DNA of 64,000 nucleotides from Aridibaculum aurantiacum (GTDB lineage Bacteria > Bacteroidota > Bacteroidia > Chitinophagales > Chitinophagaceae): NCBI RefSeq assembly GCF_017355875.1, contig NZ_JAFEWC010000002.1, forward strand, positions 372,001-436,000. The letters are read 5' to 3'. Of this stretch, positions 11,285-61,958 are shown piece after piece. Position 1 is the stretch's first letter. Each line of letters begins with the position of its first letter. The translations under genes and the position numbers were made by a program. The notes beneath the pieces were generated by a model that had not been told where the DNA came from, ran no database searches, and was given only the letters and a program-made list of their open reading frames with translations.

Positions 11285-11311
11285 GATAAAAATTTTAAAG
11301 TTTGACGGCTG

Positions 11312-11453: not shown

Positions 11454-11475
11454 CATTCCTATATATACATGCAAG

Positions 11476-42108: not shown

Positions 42109-45100
42109 ATGAAACAGTTGTACCTAGCCCTTGTGGCGCTGGCACTCACATTTACGAGTGTACACGCCCAGATGAACTATCACTTTTCTGCGGTACAGGG
42201 AACATATTCTCCTCTTGTAGGAGGCATTGTTCCTACAGTTGAAAATGCGCAATCGATCTATGACACGCACGACGAAGGTTTTGCGAACAATATACCGATC
42301 GGCTTCAACTTTACCTATGAAGGGAATAGTTACACGCAGATCCATGCGAATACCAATGGATTTGCTGCTTTCCGACCATTTACGCAGATAACAGATCATG
42401 CAAACCATGACTATTATACTGCTGATCTTGGTTACGGACCTTATGGTAGAGCCACACAAGTAAGGCCTATATTGGCACCTTTGTGGGATGACCATGATCT
42501 ATTTTCTACAAGTGATATCAAGTATCTGACTACAGGGACAGCACCTAACAGGGTGTTTACGCTGCAGTGGAGCAGGGTATACTGGGATGCTTCGGCTTCT
42601 CAATTGAACATAGAATTCCAATTGAAGTTGTATGAGACAACGAACGTAGTAGAGTTTCATTACAACCGTCTGCCAGGGGCACTGGGATCAAACCCTACTG
42701 CAGCTATTGGTATAACAAGTACAGGTACTGGTCCCGGAGCTTACATCGCTTTAAGTGATGCATCAGCTAATCCTACGGCTAGCCAGTTTACTAACTACTA
42801 TAATATCAGCACTAAGCCTGCAACCGGCCAGGTGTATCGTTTTACAAGTCTTTGTGCAAATGATAATACCCCTCCGGTTATTTCAATGAATGATGTACAG
42901 GAGGTATTCAGTAATAGTAGTAATCCTACTTATTATCTAAGTCCATTCAACCTCGCTCAAATAACAGATAACTGCGATGTTAACCACTCCAATACGACTG
43001 TTACACCTACCAGTATTAACTGTAGCAGCCCTGGCGATGCAACCCGGCGAGTAGCCAATGTGGCGCCCTATGCACAAGGTAACCAGGCATTTTATGGCTC
43101 TTTAGGTACCCCATTTGAGGTAAAAAATCTTGGGGGTATTTACCTGACCAGTTTAGGTGCTTTTGATCACAATGGTGATGGTATTCGCGGAACACAGGAT
43201 GGAGGTATACGCGTAGGAATCTTCGACGAGTGGGGCTTCGAGGTTGCGCAGACAATCATTAAAGGTAATGCAGAAGGTATAAGAGGTAATTATAGGTTCA
43301 AAGCAATTCATCCAGTGTTGTTACGTCGTGGTCGTTATGTAGTGGTAGCCAAAGGATATAATGATACTGAGTTGGCAGGTAATGCTGGTATCCATGGTGT
43401 TGGCAGTTACCCTGCAGGCGATTTGGGTGGTGGAGCTATTGCTTACTCAGGAACCAGCACCTACGGTAACAATGATAGTACTGGTGGCTTTACAGTGCCA
43501 ACCAACGGTGATGCTACTGCTAACCGTTACCAGGCAGGTACTTTTGAATACTATATTGGTGGTGGAGGAGAAACTACCCTATTCACGATTAGGGCTGAAG
43601 ACATAAATGGTAACCCGGCTCAAAAGCAAGGCTATGTTACATTATATTGTAATCCACTAGACTGTACTAACGACACTATCGCTCCGGTAGTTACAACGTT
43701 AAATACAAGTATTCATACAAATTCTAATGGAGTTGCTACAATCAATAAGTTCGATGTAATCGACAATGTGACCGATAATTGTAGTATTCATTATGATAGC
43801 GTATTCGTTAGTCAAACACAGTTCACTTGCAACAATCCTGTGGGAGCTGATGCGACACTTCGCCAGGCTGCAAGTAGCAATACTTCTACAGGTAATCAGG
43901 ACTTTGGCGGTGAACTAGGTATTCCTTTCACAGTGAATGCTGCCAATGGTATCGTGATCAACAGGCTGGCAGCTTTTGATCATAACGGTGACGGTATCAA
44001 CGGAACCATCAATGGTGGTGTACGGGTAGCAATATTCTCCCTCAATGTGATACCATTTAGCAAGTATGCTAACCTGGATGTTACAATTGTAGGAAATGCA
44101 GATGGTATATCGGGCGGGTACCGTTATAAAAATGTATCGCCAGTACATCTTCCTCCTGGAAATTATATAATAGTTGCTAAAGGTTACAACGCTAACGAGT
44201 TGAATGGAAACCTGAAGATCACAGGAACCAACACCAACAGCAATGTTGACCTAGGTAACGGTGCAATCAGCTTTACTGGAAACAGCCGCTATGGTGAAGC
44301 AAACCCTGCAACCTTTACTTATCCTTCTAATCCTGACAGTTATCCTAATCAATACCTTGCTGGTTCCTTCTTCTATAGCAAGCCAGGAAGCCAGGATTAT
44401 ACTGTGACTGTAACTGCAAAAGATAATGCTGGAAATATCGGCCAGGCAACAGCAACCGTTACCGTAATATGCAGTGGTCAACTTGATCCTTGTGCAAATG
44501 ATGTAACACCGCCTACAATTGTTAGCAAAGACATCACTGTAACAGCCGGTTCTAATGGTTCAGCTACTATTCAGCCTTCTGATGTAATTGAATCTGTTAC
44601 TGACAACTGTGCTGTGAACACAAATTCATATAGTGTAACACCTTCAGTATTTACTTGTACAGGTGGTGGCGATGCTACGCCTCGTCGTCCAATCGTTTCC
44701 CCTTCTAACCAGGGTAACCAAGCGTTCACTGGTGAATTGGGAACTCCGTTCAGAGTTAATGGCGCAGGTATTATGATCAATCAACTTGGTGCATTTGATC
44801 ACCTGGGCGATGGTATCAATGGTACACAGAATGGTGGTGTTCGTGTTGCTATATTCAATGCTAACACACGTTCTATTGTTCAAGGTCTTGATGTGATCGT
44901 ATCTGGAAACGGTGAGAATTTCATCAATAACTTCAGGTTTGTTAGGGTTAACCCTGTTATGCTACCAATGGGTGACTACGTAGTAGTTGCTAAAGGGTAT
45001 AGCAGCAACGAGATGAATGGTAACGCTGCCATTGCAGGTATTGGTAGTTATCCTGCCGGCGACCTGGGTAATGGTGCAGTTTCGTACAATGGTAACAGTA

Positions 45101-46410
45101 TGTATGGTGCTATGAATAGCAACAGCAGCTTTACCTACCCTGGTAATCCTGATGGTACACCTAACAGGTATCTTGCCGGTAACTTTATCTATAGCATTCC
45201 TGCAGCGGATACGGTAACGGTAACTATTACTGCACAAGACATAAATGGAAACACAGGTCAACAGACAGCAAGAGTGGCTGTGATCTGTCCTCCTGCTAAT
45301 CCTTGTACAAATGATACTCAAGGTCCAACTATTGTTCCTAAAGATGTAACTGTAAGGGCAGATGCAAATGGAAATGCAACCATCCAGGCTTCTGATGTGG
45401 TAGAGTCTGTAACAGACAACTGTACAGTAAGCTCAATCCAACTTAGCCAAAGCCAATTTACTTGTTCAGGCGGTGGTGGTAGTAGTTCACCTACACGCCA
45501 GGCTATTGTTGCTCCAACATCTACAGGTAACCAGGACTTCTACGGTGCTATGGGTACACCATTTAGCGTGAACGCTTCAAGTGGTATCGTTGTTAACCAA
45601 CTGGGTGCATTCGACCATAATGGTGATGGTATCCAGGGAAGCATCAGGGTAGCTATCTTCAACACTTCTACAGGTTTGATCGTACAAGGTTTGGATGCAA
45701 CTATCTCTGGTTTGGCTGATGGAGTTGTGGGTGGATTCCGCGTGAAGAATGTAACTGGAGTGTTCTTACCACAAGGCAATTATATAGTAGTGGCTAAAGG
45801 TTTTGATGGAGTAGACATGAACGGCAATGCGGCTATCGGTGGTTCTGGTAGTTATCCTGCTGGTGACCTTGGTGGCGGAGCAATCAGCTACAATGGTCCA
45901 AGTGCGCACGAGTTAAGTAATGACTTCAAAATTCCTTCTAACCCTGACGCTACTTCGAACAGGTACCTGGCTGGTTCATTCAGCTACAGGATACCTACTC
46001 CTGATACTTACCAGGTAACGATCACAGCTACTGATCCTTCTGGTAATCAATCTACAGCTACAGCAACAGTAAATGTGGTTTGTCAGCAAGGTGGAGCCAG
46101 AACAACTTCAGAGAAGCAAGCAATTGTTTCCCTGCAGGAAGTGGGTAAGTCGAACGCTGTTAGGGTTGTTCCTAATCCTTCTAACGGAAGATTTACACTA
46201 CAGCTTGCTAACCTTTCTGTACAGAAAGTAACAGTACAAGTGTTGACACAAAGTGGAATGCTGGTAGAACAAAAAGCAGTTAACCTTACAGGTAACACAG
46301 CTCTGCTAAGCGTACCATTTGATCTTACAAGACAACCAGCAGGAATGTACTTTGTAAAAGTTATCTCTGCTGATGGTGTACAAACACAGAAAGTGGTTAT
46401 TCAACGATAA
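42109..46410 (+). CDS. T9SS type A sorted protein with four HYR-plus-insert repeats
   Basis: A 1433-residue protein; ATG 42109 starts the signal peptide (MKQLYLALVALALTFTSVHAQ), preferred to a TTG at 42088. The N-terminal ~230 residues are paralogous to those of the protein at 38233. Four units of about 260-276 residues follow (first Cys codons at 42853, 43663, 44491 and 45304). Each starts like an HYR/Ig-like domain (CxNDxxxPxIxxKD, SVTDNC), is interrupted by a module with GNQxF, GAFDHxGDGI, GxYxVVAKGY, SYPAGDLGxGAI and NRYLAGxF, and resumes as HYR (VTITAxDxxGN, ATVxVxC). It ends in a type A sorting domain (VPNPSNGRFTLQL to VVIQR) close to that of the 4914-residue neighbour. Likely a surface or secreted adhesin. 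Confidence 0.88.
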   Translation: MKQLYLALVALALTFTSVHAQMNYHFSAVQGTYSPLVGGIVPTVENAQSIYDTHDEGFANNIPIGFNFTYEGNSYTQIHANTNGFAAFRPFTQITDHANHDYYTADLGYGPYGRATQVRPILAPLWDDHDLFSTSDIKYLTTGTAPNRVFTLQWSRVYWDASASQLNIEFQLKLYETTNVVEFHYNRLPGALGSNPTAAIGITSTGTGPGAYIALSDASANPTASQFTNYYNISTKPATGQVYRFTSLCANDNTPPVISMNDVQEVFSNSSNPTYYLSPFNLAQITDNCDVNHSNTTVTPTSINCSSPGDATRRVANVAPYAQGNQAFYGSLGTPFEVKNLGGIYLTSLGAFDHNGDGIRGTQDGGIRVGIFDEWGFEVAQTIIKGNAEGIRGNYRFKAIHPVLLRRGRYVVVAKGYNDTELAGNAGIHGVGSYPAGDLGGGAIAYSGTSTYGNNDSTGGFTVPTNGDATANRYQAGTFEYYIGGGGETTLFTIRAEDINGNPAQKQGYVTLYCNPLDCTNDTIAPVVTTLNTSIHTNSNGVATINKFDVIDNVTDNCSIHYDSVFVSQTQFTCNNPVGADATLRQAASSNTSTGNQDFGGELGIPFTVNAANGIVINRLAAFDHNGDGINGTINGGVRVAIFSLNVIPFSKYANLDVTIVGNADGISGGYRYKNVSPVHLPPGNYIIVAKGYNANELNGNLKITGTNTNSNVDLGNGAISFTGNSRYGEANPATFTYPSNPDSYPNQYLAGSFFYSKPGSQDYTVTVTAKDNAGNIGQATATVTVICSGQLDPCANDVTPPTIVSKDITVTAGSNGSATIQPSDVIESVTDNCAVNTNSYSVTPSVFTCTGGGDATPRRPIVSPSNQGNQAFTGELGTPFRVNGAGIMINQLGAFDHLGDGINGTQNGGVRVAIFNANTRSIVQGLDVIVSGNGENFINNFRFVRVNPVMLPMGDYVVVAKGYSSNEMNGNAAIAGIGSYPAGDLGNGAVSYNGNSMYGAMNSNSSFTYPGNPDGTPNRYLAGNFIYSIPAADTVTVTITAQDINGNTGQQTARVAVICPPANPCTNDTQGPTIVPKDVTVRADANGNATIQASDVVESVTDNCTVSSIQLSQSQFTCSGGGGSSSPTRQAIVAPTSTGNQDFYGAMGTPFSVNASSGIVVNQLGAFDHNGDGIQGSIRVAIFNTSTGLIVQGLDATISGLADGVVGGFRVKNVTGVFLPQGNYIVVAKGFDGVDMNGNAAIGGSGSYPAGDLGGGAISYNGPSAHELSNDFKIPSNPDATSNRYLAGSFSYRIPTPDTYQVTITATDPSGNQSTATATVNVVCQQGGARTTSEKQAIVSLQEVGKSNAVRVVPNPSNGRFTLQLANLSVQKVTVQVLTQSGMLVEQKAVNLTGNTALLSVPFDLTRQPAGMYFVKVISADGVQTQKVVIQR
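42853..46090 (+). repeat. Four in-frame protein repeats (~810-828 bp)
   Basis: Unit starts are 42853, 43663, 44491 and 45304, periods 810, 828 and 813, with the last unit ending near 46090. The same unit appears five times in the next gene. In copies 1, 2 and 4 the loop FDHNGDGI has the DxNxDG spacing of a calcium-binding loop; copy 3 has FDHLGDGI. Confidence 0.85.
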
Positions 46411-46435
46411 GATCTCAAAGGTCTTTCAATCATAC

Positions 46436-47213: not shown

Positions 47214-50200
47214 ATGAAGAAGTACTTTTACTTTTCTCTCATTTTGTTTTGTCTATTGCTTTCCAGCACCTACGGTTATACCCAGAATATAGAATGGGAA
47301 AAACGTATGGGCGGCTCTGCACAATGGACAAAAACAACTGGTATAGACCACGGTAAAAGCGTAATAGCACTGGCGGATGGCTCTACTGTTGTACTTATTA
47401 ATTCTACTTCTACCGAAGGTGATTTTGTAGGTAACAACGGGCACCGCGATGCTTATCTTTTTAAATACAATAGTAGTGGTACGCTGCTATGGAAGCAACG
47501 CTTTGGCGGCTCAGGCGACGATGTAGGCAATCAACTGATAGCAACACAGGATGGTAGTTTCATCATTGCTGGTACCAGTAGTTCTTACCCTGGCCCTGAT
47601 GTAAATGCATGGGTGGTAAAGACGGATGGCGCAGGCAACCTGGTCTGGAGCAAGTCGTTTGGTGGCAGCCAGGCAGATGCAGCCAATGGTATCTGCCAGG
47701 TGCATGATGGATATATTTTCACAGGTTATACTAAGTCTAACAATGGACACCTGACAGGTCTTAGAACCAGCACATCGGAAGAAGATGTTTGGAATGTAAA
47801 GCTTGATTTTTCAGGTAATATTGTATGGAACAGGATATTTGGTGGAGGCTGGATAGACGTAGGTAATGCTATTGTACCTGCTGCCGATGGTAGCGGGTTT
47901 ATTATTGCGGGTAATGTTCAATCGAATGATAGAGATGTAGCAGGTTTGCTTACCAACAAAGGCTGGCGTGCTGCGCTACTTTTTAAGATAGACTTCAATG
48001 GAACTGTTATCTGGAAGAAGAGTTTTGGCGGCACCGATGACGACCGCGCCGTAAGCGTGGTGAATATAGCAGGCGGTTATGCTTTCCTGGGTTCTACCCA
48101 ATCGAACAATGGTGATATAACAGGTGCAAAAGGTGGCTTGGATTATTGGCTGGTAAAGGTGGATCTTAATGGAAACCTGTTGTCTTCTAAAAACTATGGT
48201 GGTCCTTCAAGCGACTTAGCATCGCAGCTTGCTACTACACCCGATGGTGGCCTTGTACTAATAGGAAGAAGCGATTCACCAAGTGGTGGTACTTCAGATC
48301 TATCTACCAACTCCCACACATGGGATAGCTGGACCATAAAAGTGAATGCTTCGGGAGCTAAGGTGTGGGACAAGCATCATCGCATTGGTAACGACTGGGG
48401 ATTTGATGATGGTGCAGGTGTAGCCGTAAATGCAGTGGGTGAAGTATTCACTACCGGTGCCATAGCACCAGGTTTAGCACATTGGGATTGGCAGGGTGCA
48501 AAAGATGAGAATGCCTTTTTGATAAAGTACAACGATATAGGTGCACAACAATGGATTAAGGAGTTTGGCACCGAAAGGAAATTCACTGGCTTCGACAAAG
48601 GAGTTGCACTTAAGCAGGCGCAGGATGGCAGCTATTTCTTCCTGGTTGCTACTGAATCAAATGATGGTTTTGTAGCAGGCATGGGAGCAAAGGGATTGCG
48701 TGATATTGTCTTGCAAAAGTGGGATGCCAACAGGAACCTTGTTTGGCAAAAGCTAATAGGCGGTTCTAAAATGGATGATCCGCAGGATATGAAAATAACA
48801 CCTGATGGTGGCGTTGTAGTGGTAGCTACATCTAATTCAACCGATGGCGATCTGCCTGGTTTAATCGGTGCTCCATTTGCTGACCTATGGGTGATAAAAA
48901 TGGATTCAACAGGTGCAGTGCAGTGGAAGAAAAACTATGGCGGCTATGGCGACGATTATGCACATTCTGTTGAGCTGGCTGCTGATGGTGGTTATATCAT
49001 CGCTACCCATACATGGTCTGGACAAGGAGGCGATGTGACGGCTACAAACGGGCAAAGTGAAGCATGGGTATTGAAAGTAAATGCAAGTGGAGTAAAGCAG
49101 TGGGATCGTTCATTTGGAGGTAGTGGTCGCGATGAAGGTTATAAAGTGATCGCTACTACAGATGGTGGCTTTGCCTTAGCTGGTTGGACTGAATCTACCA
49201 ATGGCGAAGGCACAGGCAACAAAGGCGGCATGGATGCTATGGTGGTAAAATTTGACGCTAACGGTACTAAACAATGGTCGAAGACCTACGGTGGTTATGG
49301 CGAAGAATTTTGCAGAACGATTACACAAACAACCGATGGAAATTTTGCCATCAGTGGTTATACTAATACAAATAACCATGGCGATATAGGACCTACGGAA
49401 GCGGGTTCAAGAGATGTATTTGTTATCAAGTTATCTGGTGCCAATGGTGATTTGATCTGGAGCAAGAACTACGGTGGGCATTGGAATGATGAGCCAAGAG
49501 ACCTGCAGGCAACTGCTGATGGAAACATCATGCTGCTGGCGCTGTCCGATGGCGGTACTGGTCTTTTCTCAGACAATGCAGGATTTGCAGATGTATGGGT
49601 GCTGAAGCTGAATGGAAATGATGGAACGATCAAATGGAAGAAGAATTATGCTTCGCCAATGTTTGATATTCCTTCTACAATATCTAAAGCAAACGGTGGC
49701 GGTTACCTGGTAACAGGTATTCGTAATCTTGATAATCGCTGGGATGTGGTAGACTACGAAACCAACGGTGAAGCATTCGCTTTTAAAATTTCTGATAACG
49801 AAGTACAAAGTGCTACAATCTCTTCATCAGGTCCTACTACTTTCTGCGCCGGAAGCTCTGTAACGCTTACAGCTGTTTCTGCCGGTGCTGTTTCTTACCA
49901 GTGGGTAAAAGATGGCGCTACCATGGCGGGTGCAACGCAGCAATCTATTACAATTAGCACAGCAGGTACATACGAAGTAATAGCAACCACTGCAGGTGGT
50001 GGAATAGCTACTGCCAGTGTAACAGTTGTTGTTAATCCTGTTCCTTCTTTCTCTGGAAGTTATGGACCTGGTGAACTAAAGCAAAACATAACTTTTGGTG
50101 GTAATGGTGCAGACCAGCCTACTTCATTCCGCCAGGGATTGGTAGCAACTGCAGACGGTGGTTATGTCTTCACCGGATTTAGCAATACAAACAGGAACGG

Positions 50201-53200
50201 CGACCTTGCCGAAATGCCTTACTACGGTCAAAACGATATGATCGTGGTGAAGCTGGATTGTGGTTTTAATATACAATGGAAGAAGTCGTTTGGCGGAACG
50301 GGCGACGACAGGGGATATGCAATCATACAAACCACTGATGGTGGTTATATGGTAGTTGGTACTACCTCATCACCTGTATCAGGCGATATTACATTGGCAC
50401 ACGGAAACATAGATGCATGGCTTGTAAAGCTGGACGCAAATGGTAACAAGCAATGGCAGAAGAGCTATGGCGGTACTGGTGTTGACGTGGTGAACTCCAT
50501 TGTGCAAACAAACAGTGGTTATATCTTCTCTGGTAATACATCATCTGCTGATGGTGAACTGGCTGGTACCACAGCTAAAGGTGCTGGTGATATATGGATA
50601 GTAAAAATAGACGCAGCCGGAGCTATTGTAAAGCAGAAACGACTGGGTGGCACACTTTCCGAGGATGCTTATTACATCACCAAAACAAATGATGGCAACA
50701 TTATCTATTGTGGTTTTACCCAATCTAACGATGGTGATATAGTAGGCGCTAAGGGAGGACAAGATGGATTTGTAGAGAAGCTGGACCAGGATCTAAACAA
50801 GATATGGGCTTATAACTATGGTGGAAGCAATACTGACCAGGTGGTAATGATAAAGCCTACCACAGATGGCGGCTTTATGTTCACCGGCCTATCAGTTACC
50901 GGCAACGACAGTGCTTCTGGCAATGGCGGAATTGACTACTGGCTCGTGAAACTGAACGCCAATGGAAATATTGTATGGGAGAAGCTATATGGTGGTAGCA
51001 GTACCGATCAGCCGCAGTCGCTCGATCTAACTACTGATGGCGGCGCGGTTTTAACCGGCGTTACGCTTTCTAACAATGGACAGGTAACCAACTTCAAGGG
51101 TGTACAGGATGTTTGGGTGGTTCGTACAAATGCAACCGGTGATCTTGTATGGCAAAAGACATATGGTGGTACAGGTGCTGACTATGGTATGACCATCACC
51201 CGCAACACCAATGGCGAGTATGTAACTATGAGCCGTTCTGTTTCTGTTGATGGTGACCTTGCTGGACTTAACAAAGGAGGTTTCGATATTTGGATAACGC
51301 GTATTGCTGATTGCGGATCTGTAATCACAGCTACTGTTACACCAGCTAATCCACCAGTTGTTTATGGCAGTCAACTAACGCTTACTGCTAATGCTGGTCC
51401 AGGATATACTTACCAGTGGTTCAGAAATAATACTATAATAGCCGGAGCTAACGGACAATCTTACACTGCCACACAACATGGCTTGTATAAAGTGCAGATC
51501 TCATCTTCGGGTTCATGTGCATCATTCTCTAACGAGGTACAGGTAATATTCAACAGCAAGTTTTATGTAAATGACAACACTACCAGTGGTGATGTATTTA
51601 CTACAGCTATAGGTAGCAATAGCAACCCCGGTACGGCAAGTGCTCCGTTTGCTACTATACAGCATGCAATTTCGCAGGTAAAAGAAGGAGATACCATATA
51701 TGTGGATGCAGGAACTTATGTAGGTCAAATAACTATTGATAAAGGTGTATACATTCAAGGTGCAGGCAGAACAAAAACAACTATTGCACGCGATACAACA
51801 GCGACCCTGGCAATGACACCAGGTCTTAATGAAGCTGCTATTGTACAAACTACACAGAACATAGGCAATGTGTATATCAATGATCTGGCAGTAGACGGGC
51901 GTAATGGTATGTCTTCTTTCACCGGTTCTACAACAGCTATTTTGTTGCAAACAGGAGGAGCAGTGCGCAACATCGACATCAGGAATATGAAGCTGAAGAC
52001 ATCAGGCTCTGATGAAGGTAATGGCTTGTATGTTTATTATAATCATGGTGTACTGCCTCGCAGAACATTAGAAATCACAGGTAACACCATTAGTGGTTTT
52101 ACATGGGTGGGTATGAATATACAAGGTGATAGCCTTGTTGCTACAGTATCACAGAATGAAGTGGATGCAGCAGGCGCCAATTATGGTATGGCTGTGTCTG
52201 CGGGTGTATGGGGTTCTACTTTGCGTGACTTTACATTTATATACAACAGCTTAAAGAACTTCAACGGCTTCGGCTTAAATATCGGAGCCATCAATCCTGT
52301 TGTGAATTTAAACAGCTTTGTTCCTGCTAGTGGTGCTAAAAACATCATCAACAATGGTGGTAGTTTCAGTGCACCTTGTAACTGGTATGGCACTACAGAT
52401 TTCTCTGCTATCAAAAACACCATCCAGGGCGATGTATACTTTACTCCATGGCTAATGAGTGGTGTAGATACAAGCAGTGCTGTAGGCTTCCAGCCGGGCG
52501 GCGAATGTAATGGTGTGCCTACTACTTATTATGTAAATGATGGTAGCCAGTCAGGCGACAGGTACACTACAGCAATAGGTAATGATGCTAACGATGGATC
52601 TTCATCTGCTCCTTTTGCTACCATTCAAAAAGCATTTGAATACCTTCCAGCTGGTGGTACTATTTACATAGATGCAGGTACTTATGATTTTGCAAATACG
52701 ACTTTCACGCTAAACAAAGCAGTGACTTTAGTTGGTCCAAATGATACCATTACGCCAAACAATGTTGCTGATAAGTTATTGCCAAACACGGGCAGGTTTG
52801 CTGAAGCTACACTTACCAATCTTACGCTTGGTATAGCCACCAGTGGCATCAGTTTCAGGGGTCTGAACTTTGTTCCGGGTACACGTACATTGGCAGTATT
52901 GTCCAATGCTTCAGCAGGTAACTTCCAGTTCAGGCACAATAAAGTAACCATAGCTTCTACCATTGCTTTTTCATTTAATGGTGTAGCTACTACCCATGCT
53001 GATTCTATTGTTTCAGCAGGTTATGTTTTTGAAGACAACAGGTTTGAAAAAACCACAGATGCATCTGCGCAGGCCATCAATATCAACTACGTGAAGAATG
53101 TTGATGTGATCAACAACTCGTTTGTACGCGTAGGCACAACAGCGCGTAGTTTCATCATCAATGTGGTTGGCCAGACGGGTATTGTTGATCAATACAGGCT

Positions 53201-56200
53201 GATCGGTAACACCATGAAAGGCGTTAACTACGGCTTGTTCTCATTAAGGGTTGCAAAGGTTACGATCTCCAACAACAACATTAGTGAGTACAACCACGGA
53301 CTGATGCTACAGGCATCAATACCTGGTTCTACAGATATCACTGTCACCAAAAATATTTTTGAGAATGCTTTCCCTACTTCTAACCATATTACTTGCCGCC
53401 TGTTTGAAGGCGCAAACCCTGGTAGTAGTGGAAAGGCATTGATAGAAGACAATACTGTTATTGCAAATGGAACAGGATTGACCAATATGCCACCTGCTAT
53501 TTCTACGCAGGTTACAGGTACTGTACTCAATCCTCAAATGACGATCAGGAGAAACAGGATCGTTCACACTGGTGACTACAGTAGCTATACTTCATCGCTA
53601 CTGGGCGTTAGCTTAAATGGTAACACCACCAACACCACAGTAGAGAGTAATGAAGTAACATATACAGGTACAGGTTTACAACCTTCTGCTACTCCTGGTA
53701 TGTTCATGGCGGGTATGTTCCTGGCTACCGATGGCGGTGCAAATGCAATTGCGCCTGGTTCTACCCTCAATTTCAACAACAACAAGTTGAGAGGTTACAA
53801 GCACTCGATCGCTTTGTACGACGGTATCACAAGCGGCGTCAATACCAATCCTTACACTGGCTTTGGTAATGTGCCTGCTGGTGTTACTATCAATTTCAAC
53901 AACAACAGTTTTACCAACGACTCTATTTCTATCAATGCTGGCGATACAGGTAACGTAGTGCATGCAGATTGCAACTGGTATGGTAGCAATGCTGCAACAC
54001 AGGTTGCAACGAAAGTCACATCGAAAGTGAGTCAAACAAAGTGGCTGGTAAATGGAACAGATGCAAGCACTGAAACAGGTTTTCAACCGATGCCAAACGT
54101 TTGCTTCGGCAACCAGGTATTGTTCTATGTAAACGATAGCACGCAAACCGGCGACAGGTTTACCACTGCTATTGGAAATGATAATAATAATGGTTCAGCT
54201 GCCAGCCCGTTTGCTACCATACAAAAAGCCTATTCAGTAGCACCGGCAGGAAGTACTATTTATGTAGATGCAGGTAACTATGATCTGGGTGGTACAACTT
54301 TGACCCTTGATAAACAAGTAGTGTTTGTAGGGGCTAACCAATCTGTTTCTCCTAATAATGCTACTGATAAGCTGCAGGCAAATACCAGCAGGTATACAGA
54401 GTCAATTGTTAGAAATGGAAGATTTGATCTGCATACTAGTGGCGTTACCATGCGTGGATTCTCTTTCGTGCCAGGTAGCAGGTCACTTGTAACACTTGCC
54501 AATGTTGCAGTTGACAGCTTTAGCTTCATAAAGAATCGCGTTACTGTTTCCTCGGGTACAGCTATAAGTTTGGCAGGTCCGGCATATATATATGTTGACT
54601 CGCTTTTATCAGCTGGTCATCAATTTGATGATAATCGTTTTGAGAAAGTATCGGATACTGCGGCAACCGCCATCACGCTCGGATACATGAAGAACGTGAG
54701 CGTAACCAATAACACCTTCGTTGGAACCACGCCTGGTGTACGAAATATGCGTTCAATAAGTTTTGGAAGCTTTGGACTGGTTCACCAGTTTCTGATGGAT
54801 GGTAACACCATGGCTAACGTACAGCAAGGTGTGCATACGCTGTATGTAAGCAAAGGAGTGATCAGTAACAACCTTGTGAAGGACTATAACCAAGGCATCT
54901 TTGTGCAAACAGTGTTTGGAGCATCCACTGATGTTGCTGTAAGTAAAAATGTGCTTGAATCTGCTGTTGCAAGTACCAACCACATCGTGTTCCGCCAGTT
55001 TGAGGGAGGTTTTGCAGGTAGTACAGCAAAAGCAGTCATCAAAGACAACACCATTAGTATAAACGCGACAGGTTTAACAACTGTGCCGCCGGCAATTACT
55101 AACCAGGTATTGGCCAGTGTAGTAAATCCACAGTGGACGATCAGCGGTAACCGCATCATCCATTCGGGCAACTTCAGCCAGGTTACATCTGCTATCCAGG
55201 GTATAACCTTAAATGGTAAAAACGCTGGATTGACTGCAACCAACAATGAAATAACGTTTTCCGGAACAGGTTTGCCGGTAACATCTATACCGTCAGTGTT
55301 TCGAGCGGCAATGGTGGTATCAACAGATCTTGGCGCACATAAGCTAACACCGGGATCAAATCTTGCTTTTGCAAACAATAAGATAACTGGCTATCAGCAT
55401 TCCATTGCATTCTACGACTACAACGATAGCACCGCAGGAGGCGATAACTATGTAGGTTTTGGAAATATTCCAACAGGTGTCAACGTGAGCATCGTTGAGA
55501 ATAGCTTCATCAATGATTCTGTTTCAATTAATGCGGGAGATACAGGCCAGGTGGTAATGGCTGGATGTAACTGGTACGGTGGCGCAAGCGCTACTTATGT
55601 AGCAGGTAAAGTAACATCTAGAGTTAGCCAGTCAACCTGGTTGAATAATGGTACAGACGCAAGTAGTGATGTTGGTTTCCAACCTGTCGCTAATGCATGT
55701 ATCTCTGGCCAGACCAGGTACTACGTAAATGATAACAGCAACACCGGAGACGTATTTACATCTGCAGTGGGTAACGATGCCAATGCTGGTACAGCATCTG
55801 CTCCGTTTGCTACCATAGCACATGCATATAATGTAGCACAGGCAGGCGATACCATATTTGTGGATGCAGGTACTTATGCTGCAACCGATATATTTGTTGG
55901 CAAGCCTCTGACTTTTGTAGGTCCTAATAGTACAATATCACCTAATGATACAGCCAATGCAAAAGCTGCTAACACAGCACGCCGCGCAGAGGCAGTTATA
56001 ACAGGTGCAACGTTCAATATTGGCACCAGCTTCCTGGGCTTCAATGGGTTCACGTTCGATGCAGGTAACAAGCCAGCGTTTGCAATGAATGATACGCTAG
56101 GTTTCAAATCAATTGACATCAGCGCCAACATCTTCAAGATCACCAATACTGAGGGCAGGAATGTGATCAACCTTAACGGTAGGTTTGCTGCTGCCTCTGA

Positions 56201-59200
56201 GCAGATCACATCATCTGGTGTGGAGATAACAAATAACAGGTTCGAAAAATCAGGTAGTGCCGGTGGTACATCTATCAATGTAAACTACCTGAAGAATATA
56301 CTTGTACAGGAGAACTCGTTTGTGGTAACAGGTTCTACTTATAGAACACAGACCGCGATGAACTTCGGTGGAACAGGTATAGTAGACTCTGTTGTGGTGA
56401 CTGGTAATACAATAGATCAGCCAGCAACGGCTATCAACGGTCCGCGTATGCTTAGGGCAACTATCACCCACAACGTGATCGACAACAGTGCAACAGCCTT
56501 TGCATATTCCAATGCCTTGGCAGAAGCAACCACATTAGTGATTGCCAATAACAAGATGGCAAACACAACTGGTGGTGCTCCTTTCATGAACTTCAATCGT
56601 ACTGGTGCAACAACTGGTACAGCAATCAATAGCATCAGCATTCAGAACAACACCATCAACGCTCAACCTGTGGTAGGTTTGGCTAACCAGCTAATGGCTT
56701 CTATGATAGTGACGTTTGCAAATGCTACGAAGAATACAGTTGCTTCTATCAGTAACAATCGCATTACGTACACAGGTGACTTTAGCACCATTGAAAGCCA
56801 GTACAACAGGCCTGTTACAGTAAGAGGTAACATAGAGCAGGCTGTGCTGGAAAACAATGAGATCGTACTGAACCGTACAGCGAACATGTTGCCGGTACCT
56901 GCTGGTTTCCCATTACCAGACAATCCTGGTATAACGATCATCACCGACAACACAACCAATAGCTGGATGCCTGCAACTGCAGTTGTAAGTGTACAGAACA
57001 ACCTGGTACATGGTTTCAAGCAGTCTGTAGTGCTGTACGATCAGTCATCTACTGGTAAAGACAGCTATGTTGGTTACGGTAATGTACCAGCAGGAGCAAC
57101 AATCCAGATCAATAACAACAGCTTTACCAACGACTCATTGTCTGTCAACAGTGGCGACATGGGTGCTACCGTAAACGGCGATTGCAACTGGTATGGAGAT
57201 GCTTCAGCTTCTTACGTTGCAGGTAAAGTCACGCCTGCTGTTATCTACCATTCATGGTTAAGGAGTGGCATCGACTCAACCAGTGCAGTTGGTTTCCAAC
57301 CTGCGGGTGAGTGTGCTGGTTTAGATTGCACAGGTCTTACAGCCACCATCGCATCAAGTGGTACCAAAATTATTTGTGGTCAACCGGTTGTTCTTACTGC
57401 CAACACAGGTGCAGATTATAGCTACCAATGGATAGTAGGAGGTAATGACATAGCCGGTGCAACTGACAGTACCTATACTGCAGGTGCAGCTGGTGCTTAC
57501 CAGGTGAAAATAAGCCAGCCGAATGGTTGTTCTGTACTATCAGATTCAGTTGTGATAAGAATAGAGGCTGATACTGTGGCGCCAGTTATTGTAGTGAAGA
57601 ACGTAACTATAAAAACAGACTCTACCGGAACAGCATCAATTGTTCCTTCGGATGTCATTATAAGCATTACAGATAATTGTGGAGTAAATGCAGACAGCAC
57701 TTTCATTAGCCAGACAGTGTTTGACTGTGCAAACTCAAGCGGTGCAGATGCTACATTGCGCCAAGCCATCAAAGCAAATACCTCTATAGGTAACCAGGTT
57801 TTTAGCGGTGAATTGGGTACACCTTTCAGTGTTAACAATCCTGCTGGTATCATGGTCAGCAAGCTGTCAGCTTTTGACCATAATGGTGATGGTATTAACG
57901 GTGCTAATAATGGTGGTGTACGTGTGGCTATTTTCAGTGAAGCAACACGAACCATTGTTCCGGGTTTGGATACAATCATTGCTGGTAATGCGGATGGTCT
58001 TGTTAATGGGTTTCGTTACAAGAACATACCTGCAGTACACCTGGCTCCAGGAAACTATGTAGTAGTAGCAAAAGGATTTGGTGCAAGCGAGATGAATGGA
58101 AATGCAGCTATTGCTGGTGCTACCAGCTATCCAGCTGGTGATTTGGCAAATGGTGCAATTAGCTACAATGGTAATAGTATGTATGGTGAAGACAATCCTT
58201 CTACATTCAGCTATCCAAGCAATCCAGACCATTCACCTAATCGTTACTTGGCAGGTTCGTTCACTTATACACTTCCTGGCACCAGTACGTATGCGGTAAC
58301 GGTAACAGCTTGGGATGCTAGCGGTAATGCTGCAACAGATACAGCAACAGTAACAGTAGTATGTACAGGTGATGCAGATCCATGTATGAATGATACAACA
58401 GGACCGGTGATCATTGCAAAAGCTTTTGCAATTACAGCGGGTGCCAGTGGTTCTGTTACTATACAGCAGTCAGATGTTATTCAATCTATTACTGATGAAT
58501 GTGCAGTTAATGCAAATAGTATTCAGATAAGTCCTGCAGTGTTAAGTTGCGGTAATACGGCTGATGCAACGCCACGTAGTCCTTTTGTTTCTCCTTCAAA
58601 AGAAGGTAACCAGGTATTCCATGGAGAGTTAGGAAATGCATTCTCTGTAACCAAACCAGTTGTGATTAACCAGCTGGGTGCTTTCGACGATGAAGGAAAT
58701 GGTATTACTGGTACACAACAAGGAGGTATCAGGGTGGCCATATTTGATGCCGCAACTAAAACAGTTGTTCCTGGTTTGGATGCGATTGTAGCAGGGAATG
58801 CAGACAACTTTAAAAATAACTACAGGTACAAACTAATCAACCCTGTTCTACTTCCTGTAGGTAACTATATGGTGGTGACGAAAGGTTACAACAGCAGTGA
58901 AAGAAGCGGTAATGCAGCTATTGCAGGAACAACTTATCCTGCTGGTGATCTTGGATCAGGAGCAATAGCCTTTAACGAGGTAAGCGCTTATGGTGAGGAT
59001 AATACATCTTCTTCATTCATCTATCCAGGCAATCCTGACGCTACAGCAAATCGTTACTTGAATGGAAACTTCATTTATACGATAGCAAGTGTTACTGAGC
59101 ATACAGTTACAATAACTGCTGCTGACGTTAAGGGTAATGTTACCCAAACAAATACCATTGTAACCTTAACATGTCTGCCAGCAGATCCATGTGCAAACGA

Positions 59201-61958
59201 TACAACAGCACCGGTGATTACCGCCAAAGATGCAGTGGTAACAGCCAATGCCAGTGGTAGTGCTACATTAAATGCTGCTGACTTTGTACAATTCATCAGT
59301 GACAATTGTGCGGTAGATTTTAATACTGTACAGGTATCACCTGCACAGCTAAACTGCACAGGCGGCGATGCTACCACACGTAGTGCAATGGCTGCTTCAA
59401 CAAACATGGGTAACCAATCATTTGTTGGAGAATTAGGTAATCCATTTACAGTACATGCACAAGGCGGAATTGTTATCAACCAACTGGGGGCATTCGACCA
59501 CCAAAGCAATGGTATCAATGGAACACAAAATGGAGGTATTCGTGTAGCCATTTTCAATGCAGCTACACAAGCAATTGTTCCAGGTTTAGATGTGGTAGTA
59601 ACGGGCAATGGTGATAATTTCGTCAACAACTATAGGTTCAAGAGGTTGAGCAGCGGCGTTACATTGGCTCCTGGTAATTACATGGTAGTTACCAAAGGTT
59701 ACAACAACAACGAGTTGAATGGTAATGCAGCTATAGATGGAATGAGCAGCTATCCTGCAGGTGATAATGGCAATGGTGCCATCAGCTTTACTGGTAGCAG
59801 TGCTTATGGAGAAGGTAATGCAAGTACTTCCGTATTTAATTTCCCAGGCAATCCTGATGGTAGTGCCAATAAATACCTTGCAGGAAACTTCCTGTACAGC
59901 ATTGTAGGCAGCAATACGCAAACAGTGACCGTGTCAGCAAAAGATGTAAATGGAAATACAGGTTATGCAACCGCTACGGTAACATTGATCTGTCCTCCGC
60001 CAGCTGATCCATGTGCTAATGATACAACAGCACCGGTGATCACAACCAAAGATGCAGTGGTAACAGCCAATGCAAGTGGTAGTGCTACATTGAATGCTGC
60101 TGACTTTGTACAGTTCATCAGTGACAATTGTGCGGTTGACTTTAATTCTGTCCAGGTATCGCCTGCACAGCTAAACTGCACAGGTGGCGATGCTACCACA
60201 CGTAGTGCAATGGCAGCTCCATCCAACATCGGTAATCAATCATTTGTTGGTGAATTGGGCAATCCATTTACAGTACATGCACAAGGTGGTATTGTTATCA
60301 ACCAGCTTGGTGCATTCGATCACCAGGGCAATGGTATCAATGGAACACAAAATGGCGGTATTCGTGTAGCCATTTTTAATGCAGCTACACAAGCAATTGT
60401 TCCTGGTTTAGATGTGGTAGTAACCGGCAATGGCGACAACTTCATCAACAACTATAGGTTCAAGAAGTTGAGCAGCGGCGTGACATTGGCTCCTGGTAAT
60501 TACATGGTGGTTACCAAAGGCTACAACAACAATGAGTTGAATGGTAACGCAGCTATAGATGGAATGAGCAGCTATCCTGCCGGTGACAATGGCAACGGTG
60601 CCATCAGCTTTAGTGGTAGCAGTGCGTATGGAGAAGGTAATGCAAGTACTGCAGTGTTCAACTACCCAGGCAATCCTGATGGTAGCGCCAACAAATACCT
60701 TGCAGGTAACTTCTTGTACAGCATTGTAGGTAGCAATACACAAACAGTAACAGTATCAGCAAAAGACGTAAACGGAAACATAGGCTATGCTACTGCAACA
60801 GTAACATTGATCTGTCCTCCGCCAGCTGATCCATGTGCTAATGATACAACAGCACCTGTAATTGTTTCAAAGGAAGCAACCATCAAAGCAGGTGCAAATG
60901 GTATAGCTACCATACAACCTGCTGATGTAATACAATCGATCAGTGACAATTGTGCTGTTAACTTCAACAGTATCCAGTTAAGCCAAACGCAGTTCACATG
61001 TTCAGGTGGTGGAAACAGTTCACCTACTAGACAAGCAATTGTAGCACCATCTAGCACGGGGAACCAGGGTTACGGTGGTGAATTCGGTACACCATTCACT
61101 GTGCATAATGGCAGTGGAATCTTCATCAATCAACTAGGTGCTTTCGACCACCAGGCGAACGGTATAACAGGATCAATAAATGGTGGAGTACGTGTGGCTA
61201 TATTCAATGCAACTACAAAAGCTATTGTACCTGGGCTGGATGTAACCATCTCCGGCAGTAGCGATCCATTGGTGAGTGGCTTCCGTATAAGAAGTATTTC
61301 TCCTGTCTTTCTTCCACAAGGTAATTACATGGTGGTTGCAAAGGGATACAATGCTACAGAGCTAAATGGTAATGCTGCTATTGATGGAATGAGCAGCTAT
61401 CCATCAGGCGATTTGGGTAATGGTGCCATCAGCTACAACGGCAACAGTGCTTATGGTGAACCAGGAGCTAGTTTCAATTATCCTGGTAATCCAGATGCAA
61501 CACCAAACAGGTACCTGGCTGGAACATTCGGATATCAAATACCTGCGCCAAGTGTATATACTGTTACCATCACAGCAAGTGATGTAAATGGAAATACAAC
61601 ATCGGCTACAGCTACTGTGAATGTAGTTTGTGAACAAGCAGGATCTGGCGAGGTTTCAGAACGTAATGTTTATGTTAGTACGCAGCCGGTCAACCAGCAG
61701 GTGGATGCAAAAGTATTCCCTAATCCATCATCAGGCAGGTTCACTGTACAACTTTCTAATCTTTCTGTACAGCAGGTAACATTGCAGGTGATGACCCAAA
61801 GCGGTGTAATGGTAGAGCAGAAAAAGATAGATCTAACAGGTAAGACAGCATTGCTCTCAGTTCCATTCGATCTAACTCGTCATGCTTCAGGAATGTACTA
61901 CGTACAGGTGATTTCTGGTGACGGAGTTCAAATGCTGAAAGTAATGATCCAACGATAG
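47214..61958 (+). CDS. Giant (4914-residue) T9SS type A sorted multidomain surface protein
   Basis: One uninterrupted frame of 14.7 kb. Signal peptide (about 1-24); 14 blade-like repeats of ~55-60 residues (to about 862; pattern WxKxxGGxxxD...DGGxxxxG...DxWVxKxDxxGN); an Ig-like domain (about 864-942, SYQWVKDG); seven more blades (about 955-1366); a second Ig-like domain (about 1370-1446); four beta-helix segments each opened by YVNDxxxxGDxxTxAxGxDxNxGxxxxPFATI (about 1449, 1769, 2301, 2833); a third Ig-like domain (about 3371-3453); five HYR-plus-insert units (about 3453-4810); and a type A sorting domain (VFPNPSSGRFTVQL to VMIQR). The layout is that of a secreted adhesin or polysaccharide-binding protein; no catalytic residues can be named. 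The two ends share their domain types with the protein at 42109. Confidence 0.9.
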   Translation: MKKYFYFSLILFCLLLSSTYGYTQNIEWEKRMGGSAQWTKTTGIDHGKSVIALADGSTVVLINSTSTEGDFVGNNGHRDAYLFKYNSSGTLLWKQRFGGSGDDVGNQLIATQDGSFIIAGTSSSYPGPDVNAWVVKTDGAGNLVWSKSFGGSQADAANGICQVHDGYIFTGYTKSNNGHLTGLRTSTSEEDVWNVKLDFSGNIVWNRIFGGGWIDVGNAIVPAADGSGFIIAGNVQSNDRDVAGLLTNKGWRAALLFKIDFNGTVIWKKSFGGTDDDRAVSVVNIAGGYAFLGSTQSNNGDITGAKGGLDYWLVKVDLNGNLLSSKNYGGPSSDLASQLATTPDGGLVLIGRSDSPSGGTSDLSTNSHTWDSWTIKVNASGAKVWDKHHRIGNDWGFDDGAGVAVNAVGEVFTTGAIAPGLAHWDWQGAKDENAFLIKYNDIGAQQWIKEFGTERKFTGFDKGVALKQAQDGSYFFLVATESNDGFVAGMGAKGLRDIVLQKWDANRNLVWQKLIGGSKMDDPQDMKITPDGGVVVVATSNSTDGDLPGLIGAPFADLWVIKMDSTGAVQWKKNYGGYGDDYAHSVELAADGGYIIATHTWSGQGGDVTATNGQSEAWVLKVNASGVKQWDRSFGGSGRDEGYKVIATTDGGFALAGWTESTNGEGTGNKGGMDAMVVKFDANGTKQWSKTYGGYGEEFCRTITQTTDGNFAISGYTNTNNHGDIGPTEAGSRDVFVIKLSGANGDLIWSKNYGGHWNDEPRDLQATADGNIMLLALSDGGTGLFSDNAGFADVWVLKLNGNDGTIKWKKNYASPMFDIPSTISKANGGGYLVTGIRNLDNRWDVVDYETNGEAFAFKISDNEVQSATISSSGPTTFCAGSSVTLTAVSAGAVSYQWVKDGATMAGATQQSITISTAGTYEVIATTAGGGIATASVTVVVNPVPSFSGSYGPGELKQNITFGGNGADQPTSFRQGLVATADGGYVFTGFSNTNRNGDLAEMPYYGQNDMIVVKLDCGFNIQWKKSFGGTGDDRGYAIIQTTDGGYMVVGTTSSPVSGDITLAHGNIDAWLVKLDANGNKQWQKSYGGTGVDVVNSIVQTNSGYIFSGNTSSADGELAGTTAKGAGDIWIVKIDAAGAIVKQKRLGGTLSEDAYYITKTNDGNIIYCGFTQSNDGDIVGAKGGQDGFVEKLDQDLNKIWAYNYGGSNTDQVVMIKPTTDGGFMFTGLSVTGNDSASGNGGIDYWLVKLNANGNIVWEKLYGGSSTDQPQSLDLTTDGGAVLTGVTLSNNGQVTNFKGVQDVWVVRTNATGDLVWQKTYGGTGADYGMTITRNTNGEYVTMSRSVSVDGDLAGLNKGGFDIWITRIADCGSVITATVTPANPPVVYGSQLTLTANAGPGYTYQWFRNNTIIAGANGQSYTATQHGLYKVQISSSGSCASFSNEVQVIFNSKFYVNDNTTSGDVFTTAIGSNSNPGTASAPFATIQHAISQVKEGDTIYVDAGTYVGQITIDKGVYIQGAGRTKTTIARDTTATLAMTPGLNEAAIVQTTQNIGNVYINDLAVDGRNGMSSFTGSTTAILLQTGGAVRNIDIRNMKLKTSGSDEGNGLYVYYNHGVLPRRTLEITGNTISGFTWVGMNIQGDSLVATVSQNEVDAAGANYGMAVSAGVWGSTLRDFTFIYNSLKNFNGFGLNIGAINPVVNLNSFVPASGAKNIINNGGSFSAPCNWYGTTDFSAIKNTIQGDVYFTPWLMSGVDTSSAVGFQPGGECNGVPTTYYVNDGSQSGDRYTTAIGNDANDGSSSAPFATIQKAFEYLPAGGTIYIDAGTYDFANTTFTLNKAVTLVGPNDTITPNNVADKLLPNTGRFAEATLTNLTLGIATSGISFRGLNFVPGTRTLAVLSNASAGNFQFRHNKVTIASTIAFSFNGVATTHADSIVSAGYVFEDNRFEKTTDASAQAININYVKNVDVINNSFVRVGTTARSFIINVVGQTGIVDQYRLIGNTMKGVNYGLFSLRVAKVTISNNNISEYNHGLMLQASIPGSTDITVTKNIFENAFPTSNHITCRLFEGANPGSSGKALIEDNTVIANGTGLTNMPPAISTQVTGTVLNPQMTIRRNRIVHTGDYSSYTSSLLGVSLNGNTTNTTVESNEVTYTGTGLQPSATPGMFMAGMFLATDGGANAIAPGSTLNFNNNKLRGYKHSIALYDGITSGVNTNPYTGFGNVPAGVTINFNNNSFTNDSISINAGDTGNVVHADCNWYGSNAATQVATKVTSKVSQTKWLVNGTDASTETGFQPMPNVCFGNQVLFYVNDSTQTGDRFTTAIGNDNNNGSAASPFATIQKAYSVAPAGSTIYVDAGNYDLGGTTLTLDKQVVFVGANQSVSPNNATDKLQANTSRYTESIVRNGRFDLHTSGVTMRGFSFVPGSRSLVTLANVAVDSFSFIKNRVTVSSGTAISLAGPAYIYVDSLLSAGHQFDDNRFEKVSDTAATAITLGYMKNVSVTNNTFVGTTPGVRNMRSISFGSFGLVHQFLMDGNTMANVQQGVHTLYVSKGVISNNLVKDYNQGIFVQTVFGASTDVAVSKNVLESAVASTNHIVFRQFEGGFAGSTAKAVIKDNTISINATGLTTVPPAITNQVLASVVNPQWTISGNRIIHSGNFSQVTSAIQGITLNGKNAGLTATNNEITFSGTGLPVTSIPSVFRAAMVVSTDLGAHKLTPGSNLAFANNKITGYQHSIAFYDYNDSTAGGDNYVGFGNIPTGVNVSIVENSFINDSVSINAGDTGQVVMAGCNWYGGASATYVAGKVTSRVSQSTWLNNGTDASSDVGFQPVANACISGQTRYYVNDNSNTGDVFTSAVGNDANAGTASAPFATIAHAYNVAQAGDTIFVDAGTYAATDIFVGKPLTFVGPNSTISPNDTANAKAANTARRAEAVITGATFNIGTSFLGFNGFTFDAGNKPAFAMNDTLGFKSIDISANIFKITNTEGRNVINLNGRFAAASEQITSSGVEITNNRFEKSGSAGGTSINVNYLKNILVQENSFVVTGSTYRTQTAMNFGGTGIVDSVVVTGNTIDQPATAINGPRMLRATITHNVIDNSATAFAYSNALAEATTLVIANNKMANTTGGAPFMNFNRTGATTGTAINSISIQNNTINAQPVVGLANQLMASMIVTFANATKNTVASISNNRITYTGDFSTIESQYNRPVTVRGNIEQAVLENNEIVLNRTANMLPVPAGFPLPDNPGITIITDNTTNSWMPATAVVSVQNNLVHGFKQSVVLYDQSSTGKDSYVGYGNVPAGATIQINNNSFTNDSLSVNSGDMGATVNGDCNWYGDASASYVAGKVTPAVIYHSWLRSGIDSTSAVGFQPAGECAGLDCTGLTATIASSGTKIICGQPVVLTANTGADYSYQWIVGGNDIAGATDSTYTAGAAGAYQVKISQPNGCSVLSDSVVIRIEADTVAPVIVVKNVTIKTDSTGTASIVPSDVIISITDNCGVNADSTFISQTVFDCANSSGADATLRQAIKANTSIGNQVFSGELGTPFSVNNPAGIMVSKLSAFDHNGDGINGANNGGVRVAIFSEATRTIVPGLDTIIAGNADGLVNGFRYKNIPAVHLAPGNYVVVAKGFGASEMNGNAAIAGATSYPAGDLANGAISYNGNSMYGEDNPSTFSYPSNPDHSPNRYLAGSFTYTLPGTSTYAVTVTAWDASGNAATDTATVTVVCTGDADPCMNDTTGPVIIAKAFAITAGASGSVTIQQSDVIQSITDECAVNANSIQISPAVLSCGNTADATPRSPFVSPSKEGNQVFHGELGNAFSVTKPVVINQLGAFDDEGNGITGTQQGGIRVAIFDAATKTVVPGLDAIVAGNADNFKNNYRYKLINPVLLPVGNYMVVTKGYNSSERSGNAAIAGTTYPAGDLGSGAIAFNEVSAYGEDNTSSSFIYPGNPDATANRYLNGNFIYTIASVTEHTVTITAADVKGNVTQTNTIVTLTCLPADPCANDTTAPVITAKDAVVTANASGSATLNAADFVQFISDNCAVDFNTVQVSPAQLNCTGGDATTRSAMAASTNMGNQSFVGELGNPFTVHAQGGIVINQLGAFDHQSNGINGTQNGGIRVAIFNAATQAIVPGLDVVVTGNGDNFVNNYRFKRLSSGVTLAPGNYMVVTKGYNNNELNGNAAIDGMSSYPAGDNGNGAISFTGSSAYGEGNASTSVFNFPGNPDGSANKYLAGNFLYSIVGSNTQTVTVSAKDVNGNTGYATATVTLICPPPADPCANDTTAPVITTKDAVVTANASGSATLNAADFVQFISDNCAVDFNSVQVSPAQLNCTGGDATTRSAMAAPSNIGNQSFVGELGNPFTVHAQGGIVINQLGAFDHQGNGINGTQNGGIRVAIFNAATQAIVPGLDVVVTGNGDNFINNYRFKKLSSGVTLAPGNYMVVTKGYNNNELNGNAAIDGMSSYPAGDNGNGAISFSGSSAYGEGNASTAVFNYPGNPDGSANKYLAGNFLYSIVGSNTQTVTVSAKDVNGNIGYATATVTLICPPPADPCANDTTAPVIVSKEATIKAGANGIATIQPADVIQSISDNCAVNFNSIQLSQTQFTCSGGGNSSPTRQAIVAPSSTGNQGYGGEFGTPFTVHNGSGIFINQLGAFDHQANGITGSINGGVRVAIFNATTKAIVPGLDVTISGSSDPLVSGFRIRSISPVFLPQGNYMVVAKGYNATELNGNAAIDGMSSYPSGDLGNGAISYNGNSAYGEPGASFNYPGNPDATPNRYLAGTFGYQIPAPSVYTVTITASDVNGNTTSATATVNVVCEQAGSGEVSERNVYVSTQPVNQQVDAKVFPNPSSGRFTVQLSNLSVQQVTLQVMTQSGVMVEQKKIDLTGKTALLSVPFDLTRHASGMYYVQVISGDGVQMLKVMIQR
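47290..51310 (+). repeat. 21 propeller-blade repeats in blocks of 14 and 7
   Basis: Counting the WxKxFGGxxxD openings gives exactly 14 repeats before the first Ig-like domain and 7 after it (the second block begins at about 50077). Blades are 52-64 residues. Blade 7 of the first block (WDKHHRIGND) and blade 14 (WKKNYASPMFD) deviate from the GG pattern. The counts fit three seven-bladed propellers. Confidence 0.75.
51558..57321 (+). repeat. Four parallel beta-helix (DUF1565/pectate-lyase-like) segments
   Basis: Segments begin near 51558, 52518, 54115 and 55711. Each has the YVND...PFATIxxA...GDTIYVDAGTY opening and then runs of asparagine-ladder text (NNxFxN, NNKI, ITGNTI). Each closes with CNWYG...WLxxGxDxSxxVGFQP. 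The first is about 320 residues, the other three about 532-538, so the first looks internally shortened. Confidence 0.8.
57570..61640 (+). repeat. Five HYR-plus-insert repeats, two nearly identical
   Basis: Units start at 57570, 58377, 59184, 60006 and 60828 (periods 807, 807, 822, 822). Units 3 (59184-60005) and 4 (60006-60827) are very similar in DNA and differ by about a dozen residues in 274 by eye, indicating a recent duplication or gene conversion. The calcium-loop-like FDHNGDGI is intact only in unit 1; later units read FDDEGNGI, FDHQSNGI, FDHQGNGI and FDHQANGI. Confidence 0.9.

Follow-up and report, generated by a model that had tools for sequence, protein, structure and literature searches.

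Among the closest described systems are the RTX adhesins, whose Ig-like split domains are described as holding ligand-binding domains, one of them a fucose-binding CBM, off the axis of the protein; the split domains in turn serve to find such ligand-binding domains (PMC12077191, PMC10865825). In FrhA, MpIBP and AhLap, according to the same reports, a head is set into an Ig-like stalk domain, the adhesins described are T1SS proteins from Gram-negative genera such as Vibrio and Aeromonas, and a few different heads lie in one region (PMC12077191, PMC10865825). The same interruption of an Ig-like stalk domain by a head is seen in two neighbouring giant surface proteins, A and B, which the soil bacterium Aridibaculum aurantiacum encodes on the + strand of the 64,000-nucleotide stretch of DNA analysed here (the window). 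With a head that re-enters at the same loop, and with lectin-type domains among the inserts of such repeats, this anatomy is the same in kind as that of the RTX split domains; A and B differ in being T9SS proteins with an HYR-like host domain and a single, presumably ligand-binding type of head repeated four or five times in tandem. The nested architecture is well supported as real and recurrent: by computation there are nine units broken at a fixed point, confident models both of one unit and of its insert by itself, and one clade of nested copies, along with insert-free hosts, host-free inserts elsewhere and other domains at the same point. We consider it rather probable that A and B are split-domain scaffolds which show binding heads sideways, like RTX adhesins, but are exported by T9SS and built as tandem arrays. 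In open-licence PMC, queries for HYR domain with T9SS, and for HYR domain, insertion, adhesin and bacterial together, returned no paper, and none of the matches listed there combined split domain, adhesin and T9SS.

The nine units, four in A and five in B (Table 1), are about 270 residues long and all follow one order, in which an N-terminal half with DNC (DEC in B2) and a subsequent [F/I/L]xC leads into the insert, after which the host resumes with A.D..GN...V.[V/L].C. Compared with unit A3, the others are 49-61% identical over the whole unit and 55-66% identical over the insert. The units occupy 42853-46083 in A and 57552-61631 in B, the two blocks being separated by the end of gene A, the intergenic stretch and 3446 residues at the start of B. 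Elsewhere in the organism's own genome, which spans 4.86 Mb in 5 contigs, no further copy of the inserted module was found. A sequence-only reading of the window had described nine copies in two adjacent T9SS proteins with one fixed insertion point, an observation that we confirm; it had given the insert about 165 residues, and the module is real but 171-179 residues long as cut.

Table 1 Features of genes A and B and their nested units (positions in the window)
Feature	Position	Strand	Remark
Gene A	42088..46410	+	1440-aa T9SS protein, 4 nested units
N-terminal domain of A, ~230 residues	42160..42852	+	Pfam: 0 families at E<=0.01
Unit A1 (HYR-like host + insert)	42853..43662	+	host halves missed by profile
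Insert A1	43033..43560	+	
Unit A2	43663..44490	+	also found by host profile
Insert A2	43843..44376	+	
Unit A3, modelled one	44491..45303	+	also found by host profile; AlphaFold2 pLDDT 94.9, pTM 0.86
Insert A3, modelled by itself	44665..45195	+	AlphaFold2 pLDDT 94.8, pTM 0.91; Foldseek
Unit A4	45304..46083	+	also found by host profile
Insert A4	45478..45990	+	
T9SS C-terminal sorting domain of A	46171..46401	+	PF18962, residues 1362-1438
Gene B	47214..61958	+	4914-aa T9SS protein, 5 nested units at C-terminal end
SBBP-type beta-propeller repeats of B, best stretch	48624..49373	+	NF047494 3.2e-35, residues 471-720
Right-handed beta-helix repeat region of B	51570..57400	+	PF22842 (Pel9A-like) 6.2e-16, DUF1565 2.8e-08
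PKD domain of B, directly before units	57345..57554	+	PF00801 2.3e-09, best stretch residues 3378-3447
Unit B1, without N-terminal Cys	57552..58382	+	also found by host profile
Insert B1	57741..58268	+	
Unit B2	58383..59189	+	own-genome host-profile search: C-part only
Insert B2	58563..59081	+	
Unit B3	59190..60011	+	also found by host profile
Insert B3	59367..59900	+	
Unit B4, recent copy of B3	60012..60833	+	own-genome host-profile search: C-part only
Insert B4	60189..60722	+	
Unit B5	60834..61631	+	also found by host profile
Insert B5	61011..61538	+	
T9SS C-terminal sorting domain of B	61713..61949	+	PF18962, residues 4834-4912

Gene A is listed with TTG as its start and has an ATG at codon 8, and the N-termini of both proteins are hydrophobic as judged by eye. 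Both proteins end in a type A T9SS sorting domain, with PF18962 and TIGR04183 above cut-off in each (8.3e-09 and 7.1e-11 for the tail of A). The propeller-like stretch of B scores 121.7 bits against NF047494, below the cut-off of 400, while in the beta-helix region PF22842 and DUF1565 are above cut-off and the NosD model is below its own; Pfam also gives weaker Ig matches ahead of the five units of B, and no RTX family is among the Pfam or NCBIfam matches of A and B. Exopolysaccharide genes lie upstream on the same strand (window:22463-41974, +) and include an EPS tyrosine kinase, a nucleotide sugar dehydrogenase and WcaJ, all above their cut-offs in a scan of 10 window proteins; a possible flippase upstream is far below its cut-off, and a further T9SS protein (38224-39537, +) is found among these genes. 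Directly downstream of gene B is an exosortase-family protein (window:62636-63599, -) whose best match is to XrtX (110 bits, below the XrtX cut-off) and which exceeds the cut-off of the exo_archaeo signature; a small ORF overlapping it has no NCBIfam match.

In order to locate the break in the host, a profile of 80 positions was made from 12 uninterrupted repeats of 79-80 residues, three from Flavobacteriales DT_38 (L015) and nine from Aureisphaera galaxeae (L016), and run against the own genome at E<=10. It matched another protein of this genome from end to end and the window units in two pieces. The N-terminal part was recovered for six of the nine units, ending at position 55-58 of 80 in five and reaching 72 in A2, and the C-terminal part, weakly (E 0.0025-0.11), for eight, beginning at 57-58 in five and at 45-49 in three; unit A1 gave no match in this search. 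An uninterrupted repeat of L015 reads FDCSNVG-DNTVTLTVTD, and the interrupted one SNVG, the insert, then DNTVTLTVTD; when interrupted and uninterrupted repeats of one protein are compared, no host residues are lost at the insert in either L015 or L016. Two modules stand back to back within a single host repeat in L012 (6972-8018) and in L017 (7980-8993), and the L017 pair is nearly identical, a recent duplication. The naming of the repeats as HYR is borne out through their uninterrupted relatives, two of five of which exceed the cut-off of HYR (PF02494), and through a HYR domain that is broken in another protein of the genome, but not through the window units, which fall below the curated cut-off and have no Pfam HYR match at E<=1. 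That broken HYR domain (L067:3961-5040, -; G000:C1, ~2.70 Mb) is split by a 277-residue glycine-rich stretch of no Pfam family, in a protein that has four complete or nearly complete HYR-like repeats; Pfam matches only the part after the insert (residues 321-358, 43.6 bits), and the first part was recognised by eye.

One of the nine units, A3, was modelled with AlphaFold2, and its insert by itself (Table 1) has the same strands as within the whole unit, with an offset of 58. The sequence-only reading had looked for a compact sandwich distinct from the HYR part, and this is what the prediction gives; the two are separable in that the insert models alone, duplicates alone (L012, L017) and occurs host-free in other phyla. 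Taken computationally, from the profile break point and the models, an Ig-like domain is interrupted at one loop by a separately folding domain. A Foldseek search of the insert against the PDB gave a single match below 1e-3, the cyanophage capsid chain 9jwb_Z (3.6e-4), followed by PHR domains, carbohydrate esterases and their CBM, CBM6, a collagenase collagen-binding domain and Tk-SP, as well as many generic jelly rolls, which include viral haemagglutinins and an enterotoxin domain. The TM-scores are moderate (best 0.47-0.56) and the rmsd is often 5-8 Å. Foldseek probabilities are 0.90-1.00 for the PHR domains (3hwj, 3no8), up to 0.90 for CBM6 and 0.57 for CBM35, at TM 0.3-0.56 and with no sequence relation found. 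The whole unit had no PDB match below 1e-3, and BFVD gave six such matches for the insert (TMq 0.41-0.55), some of them named phage minor tail or collagen-repeat proteins. The earlier guess of a jelly roll fits these matches; on the model, a jelly-roll-like sandwich is well supported and a closer structural family is not. Several of the jelly-roll proteins resembling the insert are sugar-binding (CBM6, CBM35, CBMs of carbohydrate esterases). With a cyanophage capsid and phage minor tail or collagen-repeat proteins among the closest structures, the fold may also be used for head domains in phages.

Searched against Pfam, the nine inserts gave weak matches only (best E 0.017, to DUF4397, 2 members), no NCBIfam match fell within them, and none of 35 family members was matched in PHROGs. 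None of the nine window inserts matches DUF4082 (PF13313), and so none reaches its curated cut-off; six of the 35 family members match it at E<=0.01 (best 4.4e-6), while a further Planctomycetota member, at a place also found by the module profile, scores 35.9 bits against a cut-off of 28.4; on these matches we take the module to be distantly related to DUF4082. Compared by hhalign with a DUF4082 profile of 10 sequences picked from 33 rows, the module aligns at 96.8% (pairwise E 2.8e-10) over 82 of 172 columns, but the alignment reaches no further than profile position 105 of 172, leaving the C-terminal blocks of the module uncovered, and DUF4082 has gaps where the module has its D-x-x-x-[DN]-G loop. 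We know of no function for DUF4082. A DUF4082 search of the own genome had no match, and the same search detected 0 of 14 controls. The earlier view that the insert belongs to no named family holds for the window inserts, none of which is above a Pfam or NCBIfam cut-off, but not for the family as a whole, of which distant members reach DUF4082 and whose profile aligns with it. Sequence searches of the PDB gave a best E of 0.17 with the insert profile, a 47-position capsid match taken as chance, a best E of 0.18 with the whole unit and nothing at E<=5 with the family profile; the module search found 14 stretches in viral contigs, of which none was confirmed.

A loop of the module had been taken for a DxNxDG calcium site, intact in some copies and lost in others. 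The full motif is present in four of the nine window copies, but the first D and the G at position 6 are kept in all nine, with D (five copies) or N (four) alternating at position 5 and position 3 free, a pattern that does not bear out the loss. Across 35 family rows, many of which were found by a pattern containing the motif, D1 and G6 are present in 35 of 35, position 5 is D (24) or N (11) and position 3 is again free; in 36 rows found by the profile, partly at the same places, D1 is present in 31 of the 33 that have a residue there (3 gaps). The loop is a putative calcium site. Five columns of the 35-row alignment are invariant (G26, L41, D45, G50, F174), and conservation of the insert is spread across many glycines and core strands.

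Relatives of the module were found at 26 loci among genome contigs, eight in Bacteroidota and 18 outside (Verrucomicrobiota, Planctomycetota, Roseisalinus and Neptunomonas), and the module amounts to a domain family found in four phyla without a Pfam entry of its own. Seven of the eight Bacteroidota loci are nested, and the eighth (L013) has the N-half and the module, after which the frame ends. None of the 18 module-bearing ORFs outside Bacteroidota has an HYR-like match at E<0.1 over its whole open frame (best E 0.18); their contexts had first been viewed by eye, in full for ORFs below 700 residues and otherwise for 200 residues on each side. The module is rare, being present in 2 of 395 genomes of the phylum and in 4 of 195 genomes of the family, the own genome included in both (one of the four matches is partial, over 48 positions), and in 6 of 194 genomes of the phylum of L020, including that of L020 itself (three of the six are partial). 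A PEP-CTERM motif ends two of ten proteins scanned (L031, L034). In giant verrucomicrobial proteins with open frames of ~4500-5100 aa (L021, L024, L029, L030; G582, G745, G585, G586), three to five module copies follow one another ~1.4 kb apart in one frame, which is a second, different repeated use. In Segetibacter sp. 3557_3, two modules (L013, L043) lie 79 bases apart on one contig in different frames (667 and 369 aa), which means that the gene has a frameshift or is misassembled at this place.

Of 395 genomes of the phylum, 44 contain HYR-like repeats, and interrupted repeats were surveyed in 383 ORFs of at least 250 residues from 52 loci chosen for HYR-like matches or the module, a selection that is no census and in which 56 proteins matched. 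The filter required an N-part ending at 28-70 and a C-part starting after 25, so that earlier breaks (before 28) could not show. It returned 32 split repeats, 17 of them holding the module, eight of these being the window's own (A1 is missing), against 227 full repeats counted loosely (domain E<10) or 205 at E<1e-3. One split (L099) was dropped on reading its sequence, where the gap holds further HYR-like repeats, and the 31 left break at 26-38 (8), 44-50 (3), 50-62 (19) and 62-70 (1), the three at 44-50 being window units B2-B4 and an effect of where the profile stops. Sequence comparison sorts the 32 inserts into 11 groups. Laminin_G_3 lies at the window's break point in L015 and L017, perhaps through a single event, given that the modules of these two loci are sisters in the tree, and also within an HYR-type repeat of L069; an SUEL lectin lies within one of L073 (8.5e-14), and L080 has a 223-residue domain without Pfam match at the window's break point. 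At least three kinds of insert therefore use this break point, while the SUEL lectin, the glycine-rich stretch of the own genome and unnamed domains lie in its neighbourhood. Nesting in HYR-type repeats of Bacteroidota is thus shared by the module with several other domains. In Aureisphaera, HYR-like repeats (L016:10308-10907, 11154-11720) are broken ahead of the NC motif by a ~190-residue domain of no Pfam family. We tentatively suggest, with the chances slightly against us, that HYR-type repeats of Bacteroidota are a general plug-in scaffold, in which two or three loops accept exchangeable beta-rich, often lectin-like domains (the DUF4082-like module, Laminin_G_3, SUEL lectin, the glycine-rich domain and several unnamed ones are candidates), with the host apparently losing no residues in the cases that allowed a check, and so mark as yet undiscovered binding heads of T9SS-exported proteins, the arrays of A and B being multivalent. 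If interrupted HYR repeats do mark binding heads, the ligand-binding parts of giant unannotated Bacteroidota surface proteins could be read from sequence, as is already practised for RTX adhesins.

On the reading that we favour, the chain would build the first strands of the HYR-like Ig domain, exit at the loop after the FxC strand, fold the complete jelly-roll module and re-enter at the xVTxTAxDxxGN strand to complete the Ig domain; the module would stand sideways off the row of Ig domains because exit and re-entry lie at one loop. A and B would be exported stalks with four and five side heads, whose most likely role is to bind a ligand, presumably a glycan, be it the organism's own exopolysaccharide or another surface, and the upstream exopolysaccharide genes make the own polysaccharide a candidate ligand. 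The heads, of ~170 residues, are excisable for glycan arrays. The inserts might instead have a structural or mechanical role, as spacers that make the stalk thicker or stiffer without binding anything. The scattering of conserved positions over glycines and core strands agrees with this, as do the propeller-like and beta-helix stretches of B, where bulk could be the point; yet HYR-type repeats elsewhere are interrupted by lectin-type families (Laminin_G_3, SUEL lectin) and a spacer needs no nesting, and we regard such a role as unlikely, though with a real share of the probability. An enzyme or processing domain in place of a binding head, as the whole esterases among the Foldseek matches (7toh, 9kr0) might suggest, is highly improbable, as FjoAcXE was matched through a separate CBM chain (7tok) and the five invariant columns contain no Ser, His or Cys.

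Other explanations would do away with the nesting of a head in an Ig domain altogether. The modules could stand in a row, joined by linker domains that each consist of a C-half and the next N-half in circular permutation, and these halves are indeed contiguous in the arrays. But an N-half opens the arrays and a C-half closes them, the single modules of L014, L015 and L016 are flanked by both halves, uninterrupted repeats share their start and end with nested ones, and the unit as cut models with high confidence; on the array ends, single modules, uninterrupted repeats and unit model we rejected this explanation, to which we give very little probability. Alternatively, the whole 270-residue unit could be a single co-evolved domain family with a superficial HYR likeness, to which the missing Pfam HYR match of the window units and the correlated distances of host and insert (see below) would be suited. 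The module occurs host-free in other phyla and was duplicated alone within one host, uninterrupted hosts are present in the same proteins, and the insert alone models with the same strands; host-free inserts and insert-free hosts largely refute the idea, in which we place scarcely any belief.

As for the history of the copies, the nested ones (n = 19) form one side of a branch with support 96/94 in a tree of 44 rows (at most 43 places, as L020 and L117 are the same place); the tree has several open or long branches, and its midpoint root serves only for drawing. This topology is compatible with a single origin of nesting. Within the window, A2 pairs with B1 (95/93), A4 with B5 (86/86), and A3 falls together with B2-B4 (93/94), from which both arrays seem to derive from a shared three-unit array to which B3 and B4 were added. 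B3 and B4 share 95-96% identity in each of their three parts, the two host halves and the insert. Mantel tests show correlated distances between these parts (r 0.82, 0.66 and 0.75; 0.72, 0.55 (p 0.052) and 0.66 without B4), suggesting that host halves and insert share their history within the window.
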